This document shows positions 2,471 through 14,354 of a DNA stretch of 64,000 nt, one piece after another (position 1 is the first letter of the stretch; every line of letters starts with the position of its first letter). A program made the position numbers and the translations under genes. The notes below the pieces were generated by a model that did no database searches, was not told the origin of the DNA, and saw only the letters and a program-made list of their open reading frames with translations. Location of the stretch: contig CANIWM010000006.1 in the NCBI GenBank assembly GCA_947471505.1, positions 1 through 64,000 on the forward strand, written 5' to 3'. This DNA is from Chthoniobacteraceae bacterium (GTDB lineage: Bacteria; Verrucomicrobiota; Verrucomicrobiia; Chthoniobacterales; Chthoniobacteraceae).

Positions 2471-2638
2471 AGTATCAGGGCAAAAAAAGTGCGGCCCCCC
2501 GGTGACGAAAGTCACCAGAAGGCCGCTGTTCCCCCCAGAACGCCCCCAGAATGCTCCGGGAGCGTAATATCTGCAAGGACTTTCTTCGCTTTTTACCAAA
2601 AAAGTTCCGACCTCTCTGTAAACGACGTGCGGATGCGA
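2471..2638. repeat. Structured intergenic repeat, copy 1
   Basis: 168 bp almost identical to 2781-2948. The core at 2481-2543 (63 bp) is identical in all three copies. It starts with C and seven A. It then forms a 6-bp outer stem GCGGCC (2491-2496) / GGCCGC (2521-2526) enclosing a 6-bp inner stem GGTGAC / GTCACC (2501-2516) capped by GAAA, a GNRA tetraloop on the plus strand. A small GTTC/GAAC hairpin follows. This copy differs from copy 2 mainly just after the core (CCC instead of GGC). Confidence 0.9.
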
Positions 2639-2641
2639 GTG

Positions 2642-2719
2642 GGGCTTTCCTAAGCCCCGATGGTCGAGTGTGCGTCACGGCGCTCGCCACTGACGTGGCA
2701 ACGGGGCTTAGGAAAGCCC
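2642..2719. repeat. Perfect 17-bp inverted repeat in spacer A
   Basis: The left arm GGGCTTTCCTAAGCCCC (2642-2658) and right arm GGGGCTTAGGAAAGCCC (2703-2719) are exact reverse complements, separated by 44 bp. The loop contains its own short symmetries (CGTCACGG, TGACGTGG). The pair sits wholly between repeat copies 1 and 2. It resembles paired REP-type elements, though no REP family is assigned here. Confidence 0.85.
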
Positions 2720-2780
2720 GCTCCTATCGCGCCTCGTCTGTCACATGCCGCCTCTCTTTTGTTCATCGGTAGCCGTCCAA

Positions 2781-2948
2781 AGTATCTGGACAAAAAAAGT
2801 GCGGCCCCCCGGTGACGAAAGTCACCAGAAGGCCGCTGTTCCCCCCAGAACGCGGCCAGAATGCTCCGGGTGCGTGATATCTGCAAGGACTTTCTTCGCT
2901 TTTTACCAAAAAAGTTCCGACCTCTCTGTAAACGACGTGCGGATGCGA
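2781..2948. repeat. Structured intergenic repeat, copy 2
   Basis: 168 bp with the invariant 63-bp core at 2791-2853 and the same nested hairpin as copies 1 and 3. It is preceded by GCCGTCCAAAGTATC, also found before copy 3. The segment after the core (TATCTGCAAGGACTTTCTTC, then TTTTTACCAAAAAAG) matches copy 1 through GTGCGGATGCGA. Confidence 0.9.
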
Positions 2949-2958
2949 TGGCCGTGTA

Positions 2959-3098
2959 GCGAAAGTAGTCCACGACTTTAGTCGGTCTAACGGTGGCAAA
3001 GAGAAGCAGCGAACGCTTCGCAGGGAGATGTCGCCGGAGAAAACGACCCGCTCACGCCCGATGATGTCTCGCTGACTAAAATCGCGGACTGCTTTCGC
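2959..3098. repeat. Imperfect 25-bp inverted repeat in spacer B
   Basis: The left arm (2959-2983) begins GCGAAAGTAGTCC and ends TTTAGTC. The right arm (3074-3098) begins GACTAAAATCGCGG and ends CTTTCGC. They match as reverse complements at 22 of 25 positions. The 90-bp loop holds a smaller GCGAA/TTCGC hairpin. This spacer is unrelated to spacer A, so two different inverted-repeat elements alternate with the three repeat copies. Confidence 0.8.
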
Positions 3099-3109
3099 GT
3101 GCCGTCCAA

Positions 3110-3248
3110 AGTATCCGGGCAAAAAAAGTGCGGCCCCCCGGTGACGAAAGTCACCAGAAGGCCGCTGTTCCCCCCAGAACGCGGCCAGAATGCTACGTAG
3201 GCGTATTACCTGCAAGAACTTTCTTCGCTTTTTGCCAAAAAAAGTTCC
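3110..3248. repeat. Structured intergenic repeat, copy 3
   Basis: About 139 bp with the invariant core at 3120-3182. The tail has diverged more than in copies 1 and 2 (TACGTAGGCGTATTACC, TTTTTGCCAAAAAAAG) and ends about 20 bp before the PP2C stop codon, lacking the final CGACGTGCGGATGCGA section. It is the copy closest to a gene. Confidence 0.88.
3121..3165 (-). terminator. Probable intrinsic terminator of the kinase/PP2C operon, formed by repeat copy 3
   Basis: Read on the minus strand, the nested GC-rich hairpin (3165-3130) is followed by AC and seven T (3127-3121). That is the standard layout of a Rho-independent terminator. It lies about 105 nt after the PP2C stop. Copies 2 and 1 would give the same structure further downstream. 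On the plus strand no T-run follows the hairpin, so only leftward transcription would be stopped. Confidence 0.6.
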
Positions 3249-3270: not shown

Positions 3271-4074
3271 TCAATATGCCTCGATCACTAGCGCCGTCGT
3301 GTTGTCCCGACCCGATCTGGCCAAGGATTCCGCCACGATTTGTTGTGCGGGGTTCGAGTCTGGGGTTCGGAGAAGTTCTTCGAGTTGGCTATCGAAAAGC
3401 CCGTCGATGACCCCATCGCTACAGATTAGAAAGCGGTCGCCGGGATGGTAGCCGACGACACCGAGCTGGGGATCGACGAACTGATTGCCTGCGCCGAGCG
3501 CCTTTTGCAGCGAGTGCCGACCCGGATGCTCGCGGGCTTCGCGTTCGTTCAGCTTGCCGTTGCGGTAGAGCCAGCCGACGTAGGTGTCGTCTTCGGTGAG
3601 CTGTTTCATTTTACCCGCTGCGGGGAGGTAATAGATGCGGCTGTCGCCAAGGTGCGCAAAATAGACCCAGCCGGGCGAGAACCAGCACAGGCTCAGGGTT
3701 GCGCCCATCCCTGAGCATTCTTCGTAGCTCTTTCCGAGGGCGGCAATTGCGGCGTGGATTTGGTGGACGAGCTCGGTGAGTACGTCGTTTTTCGCCGCGC
3801 CGACGAGGGTGAACGAACGGGGGAGAAGGCGCGTGATTTTATCCACGGTGATCTGGCTGGCAAACTCACCGGATTTTGCGCCGCCCATTCCGTCGCTGAC
3901 GGCGAAAGCGAAGTCCGCCTCGGCGATGCTGGCCTCGCCAAATTTGCCGAGCCGGTGCAGCTCGTTTGCGTCGAACCGCAGTCCAAGGAAGGAATCCTCG
4001 TTGTTTTTGCGCACGCGGCCTACGTCGGAGAGGCCGTGCCAGCGCAGACCTTGGACGTTATTGGGTGGCTCCAT
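3271..4074 (-). CDS. PP2C-family (PPM) Ser/Thr protein phosphatase
   Basis: A 267-aa soluble metal-dependent phosphatase that removes phosphate from Ser/Thr (or acts on a two-component partner). The PPM motifs appear in order: GRVRKNNEDSF near residue 20, AVSDGMGGAKSG with the metal-binding Asp-Gly, HLGDSRIYYL, the LTEDDT loop, FLICSDGVIDGL, and C-terminal SGRDNTTALVI. No membrane segment is seen. Its first 17 nt overlap the end of a miniature kinase-like gene on the same strand, so the two are probably translated together as a phosphorylation/dephosphorylation pair. No ribosome-binding site precedes the ATG, consistent with coupling. Likely transcription end is the hairpin in repeat copy 3. 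Confidence 0.93.
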   Translation of the reverse strand: MEPPNNVQGLRWHGLSDVGRVRKNNEDSFLGLRFDANELHRLGKFGEASIAEADFAFAVSDGMGGAKSGEFASQITVDKITRLLPRSFTLVGAAKNDVLTELVHQIHAAIAALGKSYEECSGMGATLSLCWFSPGWVYFAHLGDSRIYYLPAAGKMKQLTEDDTYVGWLYRNGKLNEREAREHPGRHSLQKALGAGNQFVDPQLGVVGYHPGDRFLICSDGVIDGLFDSQLEELLRTPDSNPAQQIVAESLARSGRDNTTALVIEAY

Positions 4075-6737: not shown

Positions 6738-9700
6738 GTGAACTCGTTTCGTACACGAACTATCTTTGTCCTCCTCTGTCTCGTCCTCGTTATCGCGCTC
6801 TTCCCTCGTGGAGAAAAGGTGACGTTGCCTTTGCCGGTCGCGCCGATGGAGTTAGCGCCGGAGCCAGCGCGCCCGGTTCGCGTGGCGGAGGTTCCGGGGA
6901 ACTCGGCGGTGGATGCGTTTGCGAAATGGACGGAGCGATTTCTCGCTGCGGAGATGGAGGAAAGGCGGGCTTTGCTGGATCAAGGGATCACGCTGGCTTC
7001 GGCGCGGCGGACGGAACTGAAGGCGCTCATCGCGCATAATCCGCGTGAGGCGCTGGCGAGGGCGGTGCCGCCGGTGGTGCGGCAGCAGTTGCCGCGTGCG
7101 GTGGTGGAGCGGCTGGAGGAGCGGGTGAATGAGGCGGCGTTTTTCGGGGTGCTGGGTGCGTTGCCAGGTGCGGGGTCGGAGGTAGGGCCGGCGATTCGGC
7201 GGCAGGTGCGGACGGATGATGGCGCGAACTATCGGGCGTTTGTATTTGGTCGCCGGAGCACCCAGCAGACGACGGATCGGGCGAGCATCGTAGGTATCGC
7301 CGTGGATGATTTTCTTGCGGTGGATGAAAGTCCGTTGCGCGTGGTGGCTGCGGGGGAAATCCCGAATCATCCGAACAACCTGACGCAACGTCGGCGGGTG
7401 ACGACGCGGGACGACGCGGGCTTTTCTGCGGGCCGAGAGCTCCGTGAGCAGGGTGCCGCGAAGCCGCTGGTGGACGTTTGCCCGATCTCGGGCATCGCGT
7501 CTCCACTGCCGGAAAGTAACGCGCCGATTTCCGCAGAGCAGCCGGTGATCGAGGCGGAGGGGCAGGTTCAGTTTTTGTGCTCAGGCGGTCACGTCCACGC
7601 GTATCGCAACATGCTGGTGGCGCGGGAGGGCGCGAACGGTGGACCAGCGAAGCCCTCGAATCTCCCGACGGCGACGCAGTCCACCGGCTACAAGTCCCAC
7701 CTCCTGATGCGCGTGGCTTTCCCCGAGGTGCGGAAGGAGAGCTTGAGCGAAAAGGAGGGCTACCAGCTCGGGAAGGATGTGGAGGATTGGTTCGTGGATT
7801 CGAGCTATGGGAAGTTGAGCTTCATCACCACGGTGACGCCCCTTTTGATCCTGCCGCGCACCGAGGCGTGGTACAAGGACGTGGATACGAGCGGGAGCTC
7901 CTACGAGGTGCTGACGGATGCGCGCATCGCGGCGAAGGCGGCGGGATTTGACCCGGCGAACTTTGATTTTGATACGGTGATTTTCACGGGCTCGCCGGGG
8001 AGCTTCGGCGGGCAGGCATACGTCGGCGGCAAAGGCTGCTGGCTGAAATCGGGCACGGGCATCGGCGTGGCGTGCCACGAGTACGGGCACAACTTCGGGC
8101 TGTGGCACGCGAACTCTTGGAACACGAGCGGCGCGTCCATCATCGGCAGCGGCACGCATGTGGAATACGGCGACAGCTTCGACACGATGGGCAGCGCGAG
8201 CGCCGGCGATTTGCAGTTCAACGCGTGCCACAAGAACCTCCTCGGCTGGATGCCCGACAGCGTCGTCCACACGGTGAAGTCGAGCGGGACGTATCGCATC
8301 TACCAGATGGACCAGCCGCGCCAGGACCCCGCGCTGCGCTACGCGATCAAAGTGAGGAAGGATACGGATCGGGATTACTGGGTGGATTTGCGGCAGAAAT
8401 CGTTCAGCAGCAATCGCTGGGTGGCGGGCGGCGTGTTCCTGCACTGGAGCCCGTGGGTGGCGAGCGAAGGCGGGTCTCACTTGCTCGATACGACGCCGGG
8501 GTCGCCGGATGATAAGACGGATGCGCCTATCGTGATCGGGCGGACTTTTAGCGACACGGAGACGGGCGTCCACATCACGCCGGTGGCGAAAAATGCGACG
8601 ACACCGACGAGCTTCGATGTGGTGGTGAATGTGGGCACTTTTTCCGCGAATCAAGCACCCACGCTGGCGATCAGCGCAGACCAGCTCGCGGTAGCTACGA
8701 GCGCCGTGGTCACTTTCACCGCGACGGCGGCAGACCTCGATGGCGACGCGCTGAGCTACTGGTGGGACTTCGGCGACAAAAACTTCGCGACCACGAACAC
8801 CGCGATCACCACGAAATCGTGGACGACGGCGGGCGACTATGCGGTGCGCTGCGTCGTCAGCGACATGAAGGGCGGCACGGCATCGCAGACGCTCGTGGTG
8901 CGCGTGGGCTCGCCGACGGTCTTTTCGGTTTCGGGCACGATCACGTTGGCAGGTCAGCCGATGGCGAATGTGCGCGTTCACAACGGGCTGACCTCCACGA
9001 GCTACAAAGGATCGTTCACGAATAGCGACGGCACGTTCGTCATCCCCGGCCTCACGGCGGGCACTTACACGATTGGCGCGGCGGCTTACGGCTACACGTT
9101 CTCGGGGGTCTCGAAGACCGTCGGGCCGAGCGCGACGGGCGTGGATTTTACCGCGACAGAGACGCCTCGGCTGAGCATCACGGCAGTCACGCCGACGGTC
9201 GCGGAGGGCGCGAATGGCACGCTGCGCATCTCCCGGACGGGCGCGACGACGAGCGCACTCACGGTGAACGTGGCGAACCCGCTGGGCTTCGCGATCAAGG
9301 GGAGCGACTTCACGCTCACGCCCGATTTCGGCTTCGCGGACCCGTATTACACGCTCACGATTGCGGCGGGGCAGGCGGACTTAAATGTGACCTTTGCGGC
9401 GACTGCGGACTCCGCGCAGGAGGGACCGGAGAATGTGACCTTCGAGCTACTGCCGACCAGCGGCTACGTGATCACAAGCAGCACCGCGACGATCTCCGTC
9501 ACGGATGATGATACGACGAAGCCACTCGTCCGCCTCATCACGCAAGACGCCGACGCCAGCGAGGCTGGGGACGCGGGGCAGTTCATCGTCGAGCGGTTCG
9601 GCACGACGGCGGCAGCGCTCAGTGTCACGGTCGCACTGACCGGCACGGCGACGAACGGCACGGACTACACGAGCATCCCGACGACGGTGACGATTCCCGC

Positions 9701-12700
9701 CGGCCAGACGCAGGCGACCGTGAACGTCACACCCATCGCCGACAGCCTCATCGAAGGGCTGGAAACGGTGACACTCACGATCAGCACGAGCGCAGCCTAC
9801 CCTTACATCCGGGCGTCAAGCAGCGCGGACTACGCGGGCACGGTGAACCTCGTGGACGCGCAGACGCCCATCGTCTCCATCGTCGCCAGCGATGCGGCAG
9901 CGGCGGAGGCGGGGAATGATCCCGGCATCTTCGTCATCACCCGCACGGGCTCGACGACGGGCGCGCTCCTCGTACAGCTCGGGCTCACGGGCAGCGCGCT
10001 GCAAGGCGTGGACTACGCGACCATTCCCGCGCAAGTCACCATCCCGGCGGGCAGCGATTTTACTACCGTAGTCGTCACGCCGATTGATGATGGAATCGGC
10101 GAGCCTGCGCAGACCGTCCGCCTTTATCTCCGCGCCGCGAGCGCCTACACCATCGGCGCGGCGGGCGACGCCACGGTGACGATTACGGATAATGCGGACG
10201 TGCCTTATGTGACCGTAAGCACGACGAGTTCGGCGAAGGAATCGGGGACGAGCGGCTCGTTCAAAATCACCACGCAGGGCACGGGCAGCGGGAACATCAC
10301 ATTGAACTACACGCTCTCCGGCACGGCGGTAAATGGGACGGACTACACGACGCTGCCCGGCACTTTGAGCATCGCGAAAAATTCGACGACCAGCATCTCC
10401 GTCGTGCCCATCCAGGATACGGAAAGCGAAGGCTACGAGAGCGTCACGCTCACGCTCACGCCCAACGCAGCTTACGGGCTGGCGATTGATAGCTCGGCGA
10501 CGCTCAACATCGAGGACGACGAAGTACCGCAAGTGAACGTCTCCACGACGGACGACACCTTTTCCGAAAACGACGGAAACACCGCGCTGTTTTTCGTCTC
10601 GCGCACCGGCTCTACGACTGCGGTGCTGACGGTGAATTACACGATGTCCGGCACCGCCACGAGCGGGGCGGACTACACAGCGCCCAGCGGCACCGTGACG
10701 ATCCCTGCCGCCGCCGCCGGAGCTTACGTGAACATCGCCATCCTCGGCGACTCGCTGCTCGAAGGCACGGAGACCATCACGCTGAACGTCACGCCCGAAG
10801 CCACGTTCAGCGCGGGCATCGGGTCCGCGACCTACTCCCTCGACGATGCGGAGACGCTCACGCTCGGGTTGCGCTATAATCCGAACACGCCGACAGTCTC
10901 GGAGGGTGTGGGGCTGGCAACGGCGACTATCACACTCAGCGGCGTCTCTGCGAATACGGTGACGGTGCAGACGATAGTGAATGGCGGCACTGCACTCGGC
11001 GGCGGGCTTGACTACGCTTACCTCGGCGAGGTGGTGGAGTTTGCGCCGGGCGAGACGAGTAAAGTGATCAATATCCCCATCACCGACGACACACTGCCGG
11101 AGGGAAATGAGACCATTATCCTCAATCTGGACAACCCCACGAACGCACGCCTCAGCAACACCGCCTCCAATACGGTCCTCACGCTCACCATCACCGATAA
11201 TGACGCCACTCCCGCTGCAACTGTCGGCTTTACCAGCACGACGGGCACGGGCTCGGAGGCTATCGGAGTCGCACCGATCTACGTGACGCTGAGCGGCGCG
11301 CAAGCGGGCGTGGTGACGGTGGATTACGCGGTGACGGGCGGCACGGCGACGGCGGCGGACCACACGATTGTGGCAGGGACGCTGACCTTTGCGGCGGGCG
11401 AAACGGCGAAGCTTCTGCCGAACAGCATCGTGGACGATGGCAACCAGGAGACGAACGAGACGATCATCCTGACGCTCTCCAATCCCACGGGAATCGTGCT
11501 CAGCGCAAACGCGACGCACACGTTCACCATCACCGACAACGATGCGATGACGCTCACGATTGCGGCGACGACTGCGAGCGCGTCGGAGCCCACGACAGAC
11601 GGGCTTTTTACCATCACGAGGACAGGAGCTATCGCCAGTGCAGCGACGGTGAATCTGGTTGTCACCGGCACCGCGACCGCAGGTGCGGACTACGTCGCGA
11701 TCCCTGTCACAGCCACTCTGGCAGCGGGTTCGGCGACGACGACGATTCCTGTGAGCGTGCTCGATGATGCGACGGGCGAGGGAAATGAAACGGTGATCGT
11801 GACGTTGGCGGCGGGCGGTTATTCCATCGGGACACCGAGCGCCGCGACGGTGACGATTACCGACGATGAACCCACGGTGAGCATCGGAGCGAGCGATGCT
11901 TCGGCTGCGGAACTTGGCACGGACCCCGGCACGATTACGATCACGCGGACGGGCAGCACAGCGGCCAGCCTCACGCTCGATGCGACGATTTCCGGCACGG
12001 CCAGCGCGCCGGATGATTACGCGGCGCTTGCGCTGCCGCTCACGATTCCTGCGGGCAGCGCATCGCTCACGCTCACCGTGGCTCCGGTGGACGACATTGC
12101 GCCGGAGGGCAGCGAGACGGTCATCGTCACGCTGAACGTCGCGGTGGGCTATCTCATCAGCGGCCCTGCGACTGCGACCGTGACGATTCTCGACGATGAT
12201 GTGAACGCGCCGCCGACGGTGACGGTGAGCAGCCCGACCATTGGCACCGTCACGCTGCCTGCGGGCGTCGGGATGATTTTGGAGGCCACGGTATCCGACG
12301 ACGGGAAGCCCATCGGCGGCTCGCTCACAAAGACGTGGAGCAAAGTCAGCGGACCGGGCACTGTGACGTTTGGCGACGCCGCGCAGCCGACTACGACCGC
12401 CCTTTTCAGCGCAGCGGGAACCTACGTCATCCGCCTCGCTGCAAACGACGGCGCGCTGGCGACCAATGCGGATATCAACGTCACAGTCCTGCAAGCCGAC
12501 CAGACATGGACTGGCTCGAACATCGCCTCTGCGACGCCTGCTGGCAGCTACTCGGAGACCGATGGGACGTTCACCGTGCTCGGCGGCGGCGCGAATATCA
12601 CCGGCTCGGCGGACACGTTCTATTTCGTGCAGCATCAGCTCGTCGGGAACTGCGATTTCCGCGCACGAGTGGTGAGCATGACGGGCGGCGGCAGCTCGGC

Positions 12701-14354
12701 GAAAGCAGGCGTGATGATCCGGCAGACGACCGCTGGCGATTCACGCGGCGCATATATGTCTTCGTATGGCACCGGCTCGACCTCGCATTCATGGCGGACT
12801 CGCGCGACGGATGGCGCGAGCTGGGCTACAAGCAGCGTGACAGGCACGCCGTCCCTTCCGCGCTGGGTTCGCGTCGTGCGCAGCGGCAGTAGTTACACCG
12901 GTTTTGTTTCGGCGGACGGCACGACATGGACCGCCGTCGGCACTGCGGGGACCGTGAATATGACGGAGCCGATGCTCATCGGCCTCGCCGTGACATCCAA
13001 TAGCACGACCGCGCTGACGACCGCCGTTTTCGATAACGTGAGCATTTTACAGACGGGTAACATCGCACCGTTCGTGAGCGCAGGCGTGGACGGATCGACG
13101 GTCCTCCCGCAGCCCGCCGCGCTCGGCGGAAGCGCGAGCGACGACGGCGCTTTCACGACGCACTGGGAAAAGCGCAGCGGCCCAGGAACCGTGATATTTG
13201 CGGACCTAGCGGCGGCGACGACGACGGCGGAGTTCAGCGCGCCGGGCAGCTATGTGCTGCGGCTCATCGCCGACGATGCACAGGTGAAGACGTTCGACGA
13301 AGTGACCATCACCACAAGCGTGCCGGAGGTGAACATCACTGCAAACGCGCCCACCGCCACGGAGGCAAACGGCGGCGTGGCAGCTTACACGATCACGCGC
13401 ACGGGATCGGGTGACTCCACGATGGCGGTGCAATTTACCGTCGGCGGAACTGCCAGCGCGGCGGACTACACGAGCGCGACGCTCGGCAACGGCGGGCTCT
13501 CCATCCCCATCGGGTCCACGATCGCCGTGGTGAGCGCGGCGATAGTAAAAGACGCGATCATCGAGGGCGCGGAGACGCTCTCCGTCACGCTCAACTCCGC
13601 CAGCGCCTACACGCTCGGCGTAAACCCCACGGCCAACGTGAGTATCCTGGATGCGCCCGTTCTTTCCATCGCCGCGACCGACCCGACCGCCACCGAGCTA
13701 GGGCTCACGACGGGCCTTTTCACCGTCACCCGAAGCGGCCCGACAGCCAGCGCACTTGCGTTCTCCGCCAGCGCCAGCGGTACCGCCAGCTTGGGCGCTG
13801 ACTATGCAGATTTCGGCACGGCGTTCACCATCCCCGCCGGGCAATCTTCGCTCGCGATCACTCTCTCCCCGCTCGCCGATACGCTCGCAGAAGGAAGCGA
13901 GACGGCGACCCTCACACTCATCGAGAGCGGCGACTTCGCCGTCGGCGGTGCATCTGCGGGAATCACCATCGCAGACCTCCCCGCAGACGATTGGCGGATG
14001 GGGAAATTTGGGGCTGGCGCTGGCAATCCAGCCATCTCCGGCGACCTCGCAGACCCCGACGGCGACGGCATCGTGAACCTCCTAGAATACGCCTTCGCAC
14101 AAGAGCCGCTGACGTATGAACCCGCCCCGGCACTGAGCCTGAGCAGCGGCGAACTCACACTCACCTACCGCCGCAACCTGCTCGCCCCCGACCTCACTTA
14201 CCTCGTGCAAAAAAGCACCGACATCTCCGCCTGGCAGCCCGCATTTCCGACAGAAGAAATCCTCTCCGACGACGGAAGCGTGCAGGTGATACGGGCGCAC
14301 GTATCCGTCGGCACAGACGTCGCAACCTTCCTCCGAATCCGTGTGACGAAGTAG
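6738..14354 (+). CDS. Giant secreted metalloprotease-like protein with about 11 Calx-beta repeats
   Basis: A 2538-aa exported protein. The GTG start is followed by a hydrophobic leader (RTIFVLLCLVLVIALFP). A propeptide-like region leads to an M6-like (immune inhibitor A) catalytic domain at about 300-630. Its zinc motif is HEYGHNFGLWH from H447, fitting HExxHxxGxxH. Then come a PKD domain (~640-725), a CarboxypepD_reg-like domain (~729-800), nine Calx-beta repeats (~811-1824), a PKD-like domain, a DUF1349-like beta-sandwich (~1923-2105), another PKD-like domain, two more Calx-beta repeats (~2197 and ~2309), and a C-terminal domain with DPDGDGIVNLLEYAF common at the end of verrucomicrobial exported proteins. 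Calx-beta repeats usually bind Ca and mediate adhesion. A TATAAT at 6724-6729 is only 8 nt from the GTG, suggesting a near-leaderless message or a different promoter. The substrate is unknown. Confidence 0.88.
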   Translation: MNSFRTRTIFVLLCLVLVIALFPRGEKVTLPLPVAPMELAPEPARPVRVAEVPGNSAVDAFAKWTERFLAAEMEERRALLDQGITLASARRTELKALIAHNPREALARAVPPVVRQQLPRAVVERLEERVNEAAFFGVLGALPGAGSEVGPAIRRQVRTDDGANYRAFVFGRRSTQQTTDRASIVGIAVDDFLAVDESPLRVVAAGEIPNHPNNLTQRRRVTTRDDAGFSAGRELREQGAAKPLVDVCPISGIASPLPESNAPISAEQPVIEAEGQVQFLCSGGHVHAYRNMLVAREGANGGPAKPSNLPTATQSTGYKSHLLMRVAFPEVRKESLSEKEGYQLGKDVEDWFVDSSYGKLSFITTVTPLLILPRTEAWYKDVDTSGSSYEVLTDARIAAKAAGFDPANFDFDTVIFTGSPGSFGGQAYVGGKGCWLKSGTGIGVACHEYGHNFGLWHANSWNTSGASIIGSGTHVEYGDSFDTMGSASAGDLQFNACHKNLLGWMPDSVVHTVKSSGTYRIYQMDQPRQDPALRYAIKVRKDTDRDYWVDLRQKSFSSNRWVAGGVFLHWSPWVASEGGSHLLDTTPGSPDDKTDAPIVIGRTFSDTETGVHITPVAKNATTPTSFDVVVNVGTFSANQAPTLAISADQLAVATSAVVTFTATAADLDGDALSYWWDFGDKNFATTNTAITTKSWTTAGDYAVRCVVSDMKGGTASQTLVVRVGSPTVFSVSGTITLAGQPMANVRVHNGLTSTSYKGSFTNSDGTFVIPGLTAGTYTIGAAAYGYTFSGVSKTVGPSATGVDFTATETPRLSITAVTPTVAEGANGTLRISRTGATTSALTVNVANPLGFAIKGSDFTLTPDFGFADPYYTLTIAAGQADLNVTFAATADSAQEGPENVTFELLPTSGYVITSSTATISVTDDDTTKPLVRLITQDADASEAGDAGQFIVERFGTTAAALSVTVALTGTATNGTDYTSIPTTVTIPAGQTQATVNVTPIADSLIEGLETVTLTISTSAAYPYIRASSSADYAGTVNLVDAQTPIVSIVASDAAAAEAGNDPGIFVITRTGSTTGALLVQLGLTGSALQGVDYATIPAQVTIPAGSDFTTVVVTPIDDGIGEPAQTVRLYLRAASAYTIGAAGDATVTITDNADVPYVTVSTTSSAKESGTSGSFKITTQGTGSGNITLNYTLSGTAVNGTDYTTLPGTLSIAKNSTTSISVVPIQDTESEGYESVTLTLTPNAAYGLAIDSSATLNIEDDEVPQVNVSTTDDTFSENDGNTALFFVSRTGSTTAVLTVNYTMSGTATSGADYTAPSGTVTIPAAAAGAYVNIAILGDSLLEGTETITLNVTPEATFSAGIGSATYSLDDAETLTLGLRYNPNTPTVSEGVGLATATITLSGVSANTVTVQTIVNGGTALGGGLDYAYLGEVVEFAPGETSKVINIPITDDTLPEGNETIILNLDNPTNARLSNTASNTVLTLTITDNDATPAATVGFTSTTGTGSEAIGVAPIYVTLSGAQAGVVTVDYAVTGGTATAADHTIVAGTLTFAAGETAKLLPNSIVDDGNQETNETIILTLSNPTGIVLSANATHTFTITDNDAMTLTIAATTASASEPTTDGLFTITRTGAIASAATVNLVVTGTATAGADYVAIPVTATLAAGSATTTIPVSVLDDATGEGNETVIVTLAAGGYSIGTPSAATVTITDDEPTVSIGASDASAAELGTDPGTITITRTGSTAASLTLDATISGTASAPDDYAALALPLTIPAGSASLTLTVAPVDDIAPEGSETVIVTLNVAVGYLISGPATATVTILDDDVNAPPTVTVSSPTIGTVTLPAGVGMILEATVSDDGKPIGGSLTKTWSKVSGPGTVTFGDAAQPTTTALFSAAGTYVIRLAANDGALATNADINVTVLQADQTWTGSNIASATPAGSYSETDGTFTVLGGGANITGSADTFYFVQHQLVGNCDFRARVVSMTGGGSSAKAGVMIRQTTAGDSRGAYMSSYGTGSTSHSWRTRATDGASWATSSVTGTPSLPRWVRVVRSGSSYTGFVSADGTTWTAVGTAGTVNMTEPMLIGLAVTSNSTTALTTAVFDNVSILQTGNIAPFVSAGVDGSTVLPQPAALGGSASDDGAFTTHWEKRSGPGTVIFADLAAATTTAEFSAPGSYVLRLIADDAQVKTFDEVTITTSVPEVNITANAPTATEANGGVAAYTITRTGSGDSTMAVQFTVGGTASAADYTSATLGNGGLSIPIGSTIAVVSAAIVKDAIIEGAETLSVTLNSASAYTLGVNPTANVSILDAPVLSIAATDPTATELGLTTGLFTVTRSGPTASALAFSASASGTASLGADYADFGTAFTIPAGQSSLAITLSPLADTLAEGSETATLTLIESGDFAVGGASAGITIADLPADDWRMGKFGAGAGNPAISGDLADPDGDGIVNLLEYAFAQEPLTYEPAPALSLSSGELTLTYRRNLLAPDLTYLVQKSTDISAWQPAFPTEEILSDDGSVQVIRAHVSVGTDVATFLRIRVTK

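Follow-up and report, generated by a model that had tools for sequence, protein, structure and literature searches.

Sibling sRNAs of bacteria are typically present in several copies per genome, which share one invariant segment and are driven by different promoters. LhrC of Listeria and the CcsR/Cuckoo RNAs of Rhodobacter are sibling or multicopy sRNAs of this kind that do not depend on Hfq. In both cases, the shared element is a C/U-rich seed, either single-stranded or in a loop, which is directed against ribosome-binding sites. The 6C RNA of Actinobacteria carries C-rich loops in two hairpins, Yfr1 of cyanobacteria has its core single-stranded between two hairpins, and CsrB and RsmY are protein-titrating RNAs. 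Here, we describe an apparently order-restricted and undescribed family of sRNA genes in the Verrucomicrobiota, which the comparison of genomes indicates to be very probably real. Three of its copies lie in the window, the whole 64,000-nucleotide stretch of DNA that was analysed (positions 1 to 64,000 of contig CANIWM010000006.1 of a Chthoniobacteraceae bacterium).

Results

A unit of about 140-170 bp is present in triplicate on the minus strand of the window (2471-2640, 2781-2948 and 3110-3248). As the first-pass annotation had noticed, the copies share a 63-bp block, CAAAAAAAGTGCGG...CCAGAACGC (2481-2543 and equivalents), without a single difference. At three permitted mismatches, 0.27 occurrences of the palindrome are expected in the window and three are present, so that it is no chance feature. 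The array is located between a PP2C phosphatase gene upstream on the same strand (3271-4074, minus; Pfam PP2C_2, 4e-19) and a convergent gene for an S4-domain (Hsp15-like) protein (2066-2428, plus; Pfam S4, 3e-10). Copy 3 starts about 90 nt past the PP2C stop codon.

The spacers between the copies contain repeats of a different nature. An 88-bp dispersed palindromic REP/MITE-like element (2638-2725, outside the sRNA) separates copies 1 and 2. It has 43 matches in its own genome, many of which are both orientations of one palindromic place, and one of its copies is found on contig C124, about 115 bp from the sRNA copy there. Between copies 2 and 3 (2951-3108) lies another inverted-repeat element, with arms GCGAAAGTAGTCCACGA and TCGCGGACTGCTTTCGC; the arm beginning with GCGAAAGTAGTCCACGA recurs elsewhere, with 11 matches in the genome. 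The earlier idea of a REP-like repeat fits these spacer elements, and not the sRNA copies.

When the identical 60 nt are folded, the minus-strand RNA is far more stable than the plus-strand RNA (-37.7 versus -25.4 kcal/mol), and its fold has a z-score of -7.8. Only the minus strand forms an uninterrupted 16-bp stem, GCGGCCUUCUGGUGAC-UUUC-GUCACCGGGGGGCCGC, followed by AC and U7. This stem is preceded by a GUUCU-GGGG-GGAAC hairpin (hairpin 1), which on its own folds with only -4.8 kcal/mol. The long stem contains G-U pairs (about 13% of stem cells in a tally of the order-wide alignment), in place of which the plus strand has A-C mismatches. This asymmetry identifies the minus strand as the functional one. 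The first-pass annotation had seen the element as a plus-strand double stem with a GNRA cap and an internal loop. This fold forms as described, but cap and internal loop are merely the complement of the perfect, UUUC-capped minus-strand stem, and the plus-strand reading is ruled out by the G-U asymmetry together with the folding energies. The GTTC/GAAC hairpin, which had been placed second, is present, yet it turns out to be the conserved part. The minus-strand intrinsic terminator had been correctly recognised, except that it belongs to the sRNA and is not mainly the terminator of the PP2C gene.

Each copy has the predicted anatomy of a complete small-RNA gene of about 60 nt, with promoter, hairpin 1, terminator hairpin and U7 tract. 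Copy 1 (2482-2541, minus; covariance-model match of 77 bits, E 3.6e-16 per genome) is predicted to be transcribed from near 2541 to the U-tract ending at 2482. According to folding and the order-wide covariance-model alignment, it begins with the invariant hairpin 1 (2528-2541), continues with the 16-bp terminator hairpin with its UUUC loop (2491-2526) and ends in the U7 tract (2482-2488). The predicted promoter (2548-2576, minus) has a -35 box TTGCAG (2571-2576) and a -10 box CATTCT (2548-2553), separated by a 17-nt spacer. Copies 2 and 3, both on the minus strand and both matched by the covariance model, have the same arrangement. In copy 2 (2792-2851), the hairpin spans 2838-2851, the terminator 2801-2836, the U7 tract 2792-2798 and the predicted promoter 2858-2886 (-35 at 2881-2886, -10 at 2858-2863). 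In copy 3 (3121-3180), the corresponding positions are 3167-3180, 3130-3165, 3121-3127 and 3187-3215 (-35 at 3210-3215, -10 at 3187-3192).

The evidence for promoters in the wider family rests on fixed positions, because the unanchored promoter score (8.95) is only slightly higher than in shuffles (8.3-8.8). The -10 hexamers are poor in many loci. TTGC or TTGA begins exactly at -35 from GTTC in 46 of 131 upstream regions, compared to about one expected per position. A second set (40/131), which starts about 14 nt further upstream, has TTG[CAT] near -49 together with a TTTnnAAGATT leader that is conserved. A third set of nine matches has an ECF-sigma-like TTCTAAC-N16-GTCTTA arrangement, with an AAC/GTC signature that resembles that of promoters of ECF sigma factors. 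It comprises L209 (4074-4137), which is the sixth copy of the window genome, on contig C35, as well as L218, L220, L266, L122, L130, L133, L138 and L146, and in several of these paralogues the terminator loop is longer. Some family members have an additional 5' hairpin of variable sequence, such as GAGUUUGAAAGAACUC in L017. As a prediction, each sRNA gene has a promoter of its own.

DNA searches detect homologues in 10/10 genomes of the genus and in 25/40 of the family set, all of which have in common a promoter-like sequence, GTTCTGGGGGGAACA, a GC-rich hairpin and a T-tract. A first covariance model was built from 28 sequences. The covariance-model search of genome and phylum, which had been proposed in the first-pass annotation, brought up further copies in the window genome (six in 6 Mb) and in its relatives, with homologues in 199 of 213 Chthoniobacterales/Spartobacteria genomes, at one to nine per genome. 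Matches are present in 109 of the 112 high-quality genomes of the order and in 42 of its 45 genera. Among the 14 genomes of the order without a match, completeness is 95% or more in three (G037, G209 and G211) and 59-88% in the other 11. G209 and G211, with genomes of 900 kb, are plausibly reduced symbionts.

Outside the Chthoniobacterales, weak matches occur in only 2 of 311 genomes of the class, and a second covariance model, from 97 order-wide sequences, finds nothing convincing in the rest of the phylum. On inspection, the weak matches of this second model are chance terminators, with the exception of one borderline sequence in G414. This sequence (L277, G414:C4:63658-63712) has an sRNA-like TTTTTGGGGGGAATA, a TTGCGA promoter-like box and a terminator, lies near a lysyl-tRNA synthetase-like gene, and may be a distant relative or a chance match. 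Among the matches listed, public contig titles name Chthoniobacteraceae, Chthoniobacterales, Spartobacteria, Terrimicrobiaceae and Candidatus Udaeobacter. A few name Akkermansia, Prosthecobacter or Opitutus, and we take these as mislabelled, since the corresponding contigs belong to members of the family studied here. A pattern match in a Niyogibacteria contig has no stem, two viral ones from IMG/VR have no terminator stem, and all three are attributed to chance; a phage search gave no match to the sRNA family.

The earlier remark that the element was not recognised as a named repeat family agrees with Rfam, where the best score, for ctRNA_pGA1, is 21 bits against a gathering score of 45, and where the sRNA positions of seven diverse loci have no match either. 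A search of open-licence PMC papers found nothing on this RNA or on sRNAs of this group. The Rfam comparison also placed Bcj14 (Burkholderia RNA 14) in a Chthoniobacterales genome (L258, 1590-1762, minus, 62 bits), which is outside its expected range.

A selected GC-rich terminator hairpin followed by a U-tract is evident from compensatory changes, which the first-pass annotation had suggested looking for. In the order-wide covariance-model alignment, which was fitted to the model, both-sided changes occur at 16/16 terminator-stem pairs, 99.2% of the cells are paired, and the covariation score is 0.588, compared to 0.161 for shuffled and at most 0.145 for slid controls. When the family was aligned independently with MAFFT, without fitting to the model, nine double-changed pairs and 97.5% pairing were already seen.

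Hairpin 1 behaves very differently. Its 15-mer, GTTCTGGGGGGAACA, is practically invariant, and its four outer pairs have zero variation in 92 distinct sequences of the order-wide alignment. Among 131 promoter-distinct matches, 127 have GTTCTGGGGGGAACA, three have GTTCCGGGGGGAACA and one has GTTCTGGGGGGAACT. The recurrent GTTCCGGGGGGAACA variant changes U5 to C and thereby a U-G to a C-G pair in the stem. As this set was gathered with the pattern GTTC[TC]GGGGGGAAC, and includes three non-members (the viral chance matches L290 and L291, and the target-search locus L294), the invariance within it is partly by construction. Less biased support comes from the covariance-model matches within the order, which were collected without the pattern and have hairpin 1 in every case, and from the free drift of the adjoining stem.

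G000 and G008, two sister species, show no difference in the core, while the units are about 90% identical overall, with flanks that differ by about 10%. In G001, two tandem copies have another stem sequence in common. The identity of the core reflects purifying selection together with homogenisation of tandem copies, and not mere recency. Of the two causes considered at first, selection or recent copying, the former is retained, whereas the latter is hard to reconcile with the same core in G008.

The genomic context varies. In the genus of the window, an array of two or three copies follows the PP2C gene, and other copies are found at unrelated places. In family f11, about 40-50 loci share a conserved position, where genes for a YqgE-like protein and alanine dehydrogenase (both recognised by eye) are divergent from the sRNA, and genes for a DUF4230 protein and for a long protein without Pfam domains are downstream of it. 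In f11 as in f4, f6, f7, f8, f12 and f13, the sRNA is followed on its own strand, often at a distance of no more than 150 nt, by a DUF4230-type gene or one for a protein of 1100 aa without Pfam domains. According to mechanical and crude ORF calls, 60 of 182 loci sit between divergent ORFs, and the next ORF is on the opposite strand in 63/182 (67 if loci at contig edges are included). Elsewhere in the window, at 6738-14354, a gene encodes a protein of 2538 aa that, as judged by eye, is of secreted type, has a metalloprotease-like N-terminal part and contains numerous Calx-beta/PKD-like repeats.

Discussion

The comparison of genomes supports the anatomy of the gene, its strand, the structure of the terminator, the invariance of hairpin 1, the near-universality in the order and the presence of differently promoted paralogues. 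The order of the parts strongly implies that transcription would start at the promoter, run through the GGGG-capped hairpin and then terminate. A sigma70-type promoter would start transcription of the minus strand at or just before GTTC, and RNA polymerase would make hairpin 1 first and then the long GC-rich hairpin with the U-tract, which would end transcription. The predicted product is a free-standing non-coding RNA with a length of about 60 nt, or about 75 nt where the 5' leader is present. The terminator hairpin would protect the RNA 3' end and serve as a structural tail, with a sequence that may drift as long as the pairing holds. Hairpin 1, displayed at the 5' end, would be the effector, because it is the sole constrained sequence and there is no conserved single-stranded seed other than its loop.

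From these features we infer that the RNA is transcribed, acts in trans and uses hairpin 1 as its recognition site. An undescribed, order-restricted sRNA family that acts in trans through its invariant hairpin 1 is, on balance, the probable explanation of the data as a whole. The hairpin itself may be read as a whole by a protein, which would be titrated or directed by the RNA, and we consider the chances of this evenly balanced. Protein binding appears likelier than an antisense seed, since both stem arms are frozen and at most four loop bases are exposed. It is also favoured by the missing RNA chaperones and the missing excess of complementary sites. Hfq and ProQ were each found in 0/24 genomes of relatives, in which the controls were detected, and CsrA is missing from 19/24, including the window genome. 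An sRNA dependent on Hfq or ProQ is thus rejected for these genomes, as is a CsrA-titrating RNA, also because the loop is GGGG and GGA is partly in the stem. Hence, CsrA, Hfq and ProQ are no candidate partners in the window genome. Tentatively, one may picture a core post-transcriptional regulatory system of a kind not seen before, universal in the order, in which the invariant GGGG-tetraloop hairpin is the sole effector and is bound by an RNA-binding protein or machine, and in which some paralogues are under ECF sigma control.

Alternatively, the RNAs could be a base-pairing antisense family, in which the G-rich loop opens the weak stem and pairs with C-rich segments in several mRNAs, so that the differently promoted paralogues are siblings acting on one shared target set. 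This is a serious possibility that we nevertheless doubt. Multiple copies, one invariant segment and differing promoters are the sibling pattern, hairpin 1 is weak enough that it could open, and the main promoter class puts the invariant segment at the 5' end. However, the complement TGTTCCCCCCB occurs at 140 sites in 40 family genomes, compared to 137 for the reversed control, which does not point to long antisense targets in large numbers. There is no overall excess of C-runs once the sRNA copies are subtracted, and visual inspection of about 50 loci revealed no orthologous target. C-runs near start codons gave no signal in a small set of 200 leaders, too few to test leaders. The missing target signal is weak evidence, since targets may be few or may use a complement of less than 10 nt. 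The frozen state of both stem arms and the failure to find Hfq and ProQ in the 24 genomes also speak against base pairing.

Promoter, sensor hairpin and terminator could also make up a leader or attenuator that acts in cis on the downstream gene, as the same-strand DUF4230-type or 1100-aa gene in seven families might suggest. We consider this improbable. The downstream gene is convergent in the window, the copies of a genome are dispersed beside unrelated genes, and a cis role cannot be general in view of the 60 divergent and 63 opposite-strand arrangements among the 182 loci. It is still harder to believe that the element is the intrinsic terminator of the PP2C gene, locally amplified. The position and strand of copy 3 would suit such a role, but other loci are in divergent or unrelated contexts (60/182 between a divergent pair), and a terminator needs neither a promoter of its own nor an invariant upstream hairpin.

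The GTTC/GAAC inverted repeat exists and invites comparison with a DNA operator, i.e. a LexA-like GTTC-Nx-GAAC palindrome that follows a promoter, but we give this very little credence. Its TGGGGG centre is asymmetric but invariant. GTTC-N4-GAAC shows no enrichment, and the few GTTC-N6-GAAC sites elsewhere comprise, among others, parS-like GTTCCACGTGGAAC. The parS-like sites, three in L123 and others in L136, L242 and L105, are located beside a gidA/mnmG-like gene cluster. Least credible of all is a mobile repeat, be it of the REP/RAYT type that the first-pass annotation had hinted at or of another. Despite the local triplication and the several dispersed copies per genome, there are only six copies in 6 Mb, at conserved or single sites, with conserved gene neighbourhoods in one family and the promoter and terminator of an sRNA gene, while it is the elements in the spacers between the copies that are truly dispersed palindromes. 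In G006, a divergent sRNA-like hairpin, CTGAGGGGAACAGCGGCCCC..., occurs in eight places with equal scores. The two that were inspected (L029 G006:C146 and L030 G006:C127) are at contig ends, and this repeat is probably a mobile element with an sRNA-like or terminator-like hairpin.

The presence of the trans-acting RNA proposed here in nearly every genome, with a 15-letter hairpin that hardly changes amid drift, makes an important job very likely. Verrucomicrobiota are abundant in soil and fresh water, and their post-transcriptional regulation is almost unexplored. A 60-nt RNA in 97% of the good genomes of the order, with an invariant 15-mer amid freely drifting sequence, offers a clean handle on it. 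The constraint on the 15-mer implies that the RNA has a universal partner in its hosts, which lack the customary RNA chaperones. Any isolate of the order in culture would allow the sRNA prediction to be put to the test.

With respect to its organisation, the family is similar to LhrC and the CcsR/Cuckoo RNAs in having short paralogues in each genome, one invariant element, an intrinsic terminator and often different promoters. In contrast to their seeds, the element is G-rich and fully base-paired, a hairpin of 5 bp capped by a GGGG loop. Like 6C RNA, the RNA is small, lineage-wide and equipped with homopolymeric loop bases by a terminator, but there is one G-rich loop in about 60 nt, the host is a member of the Verrucomicrobiota, and Rfam has no match. 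It shares with CsrB and RsmY a hairpin with a G-rich loop, multiple copies and a possible role as a protein sponge. However, there is one hairpin per RNA, GGA is outside the loop, where CsrA needs it, and the RNA is present in spite of the absence of CsrA in 19 of the 24 genomes. Yfr1 is likewise tiny, near-universal in its lineage and endowed with an ultraconserved core and its own terminator, but in our case the core itself is a hairpin. We know of no sRNA class that resembles hairpin 1 as an effector. The RNA is thus a new family within the known class of stand-alone bacterial sRNAs.
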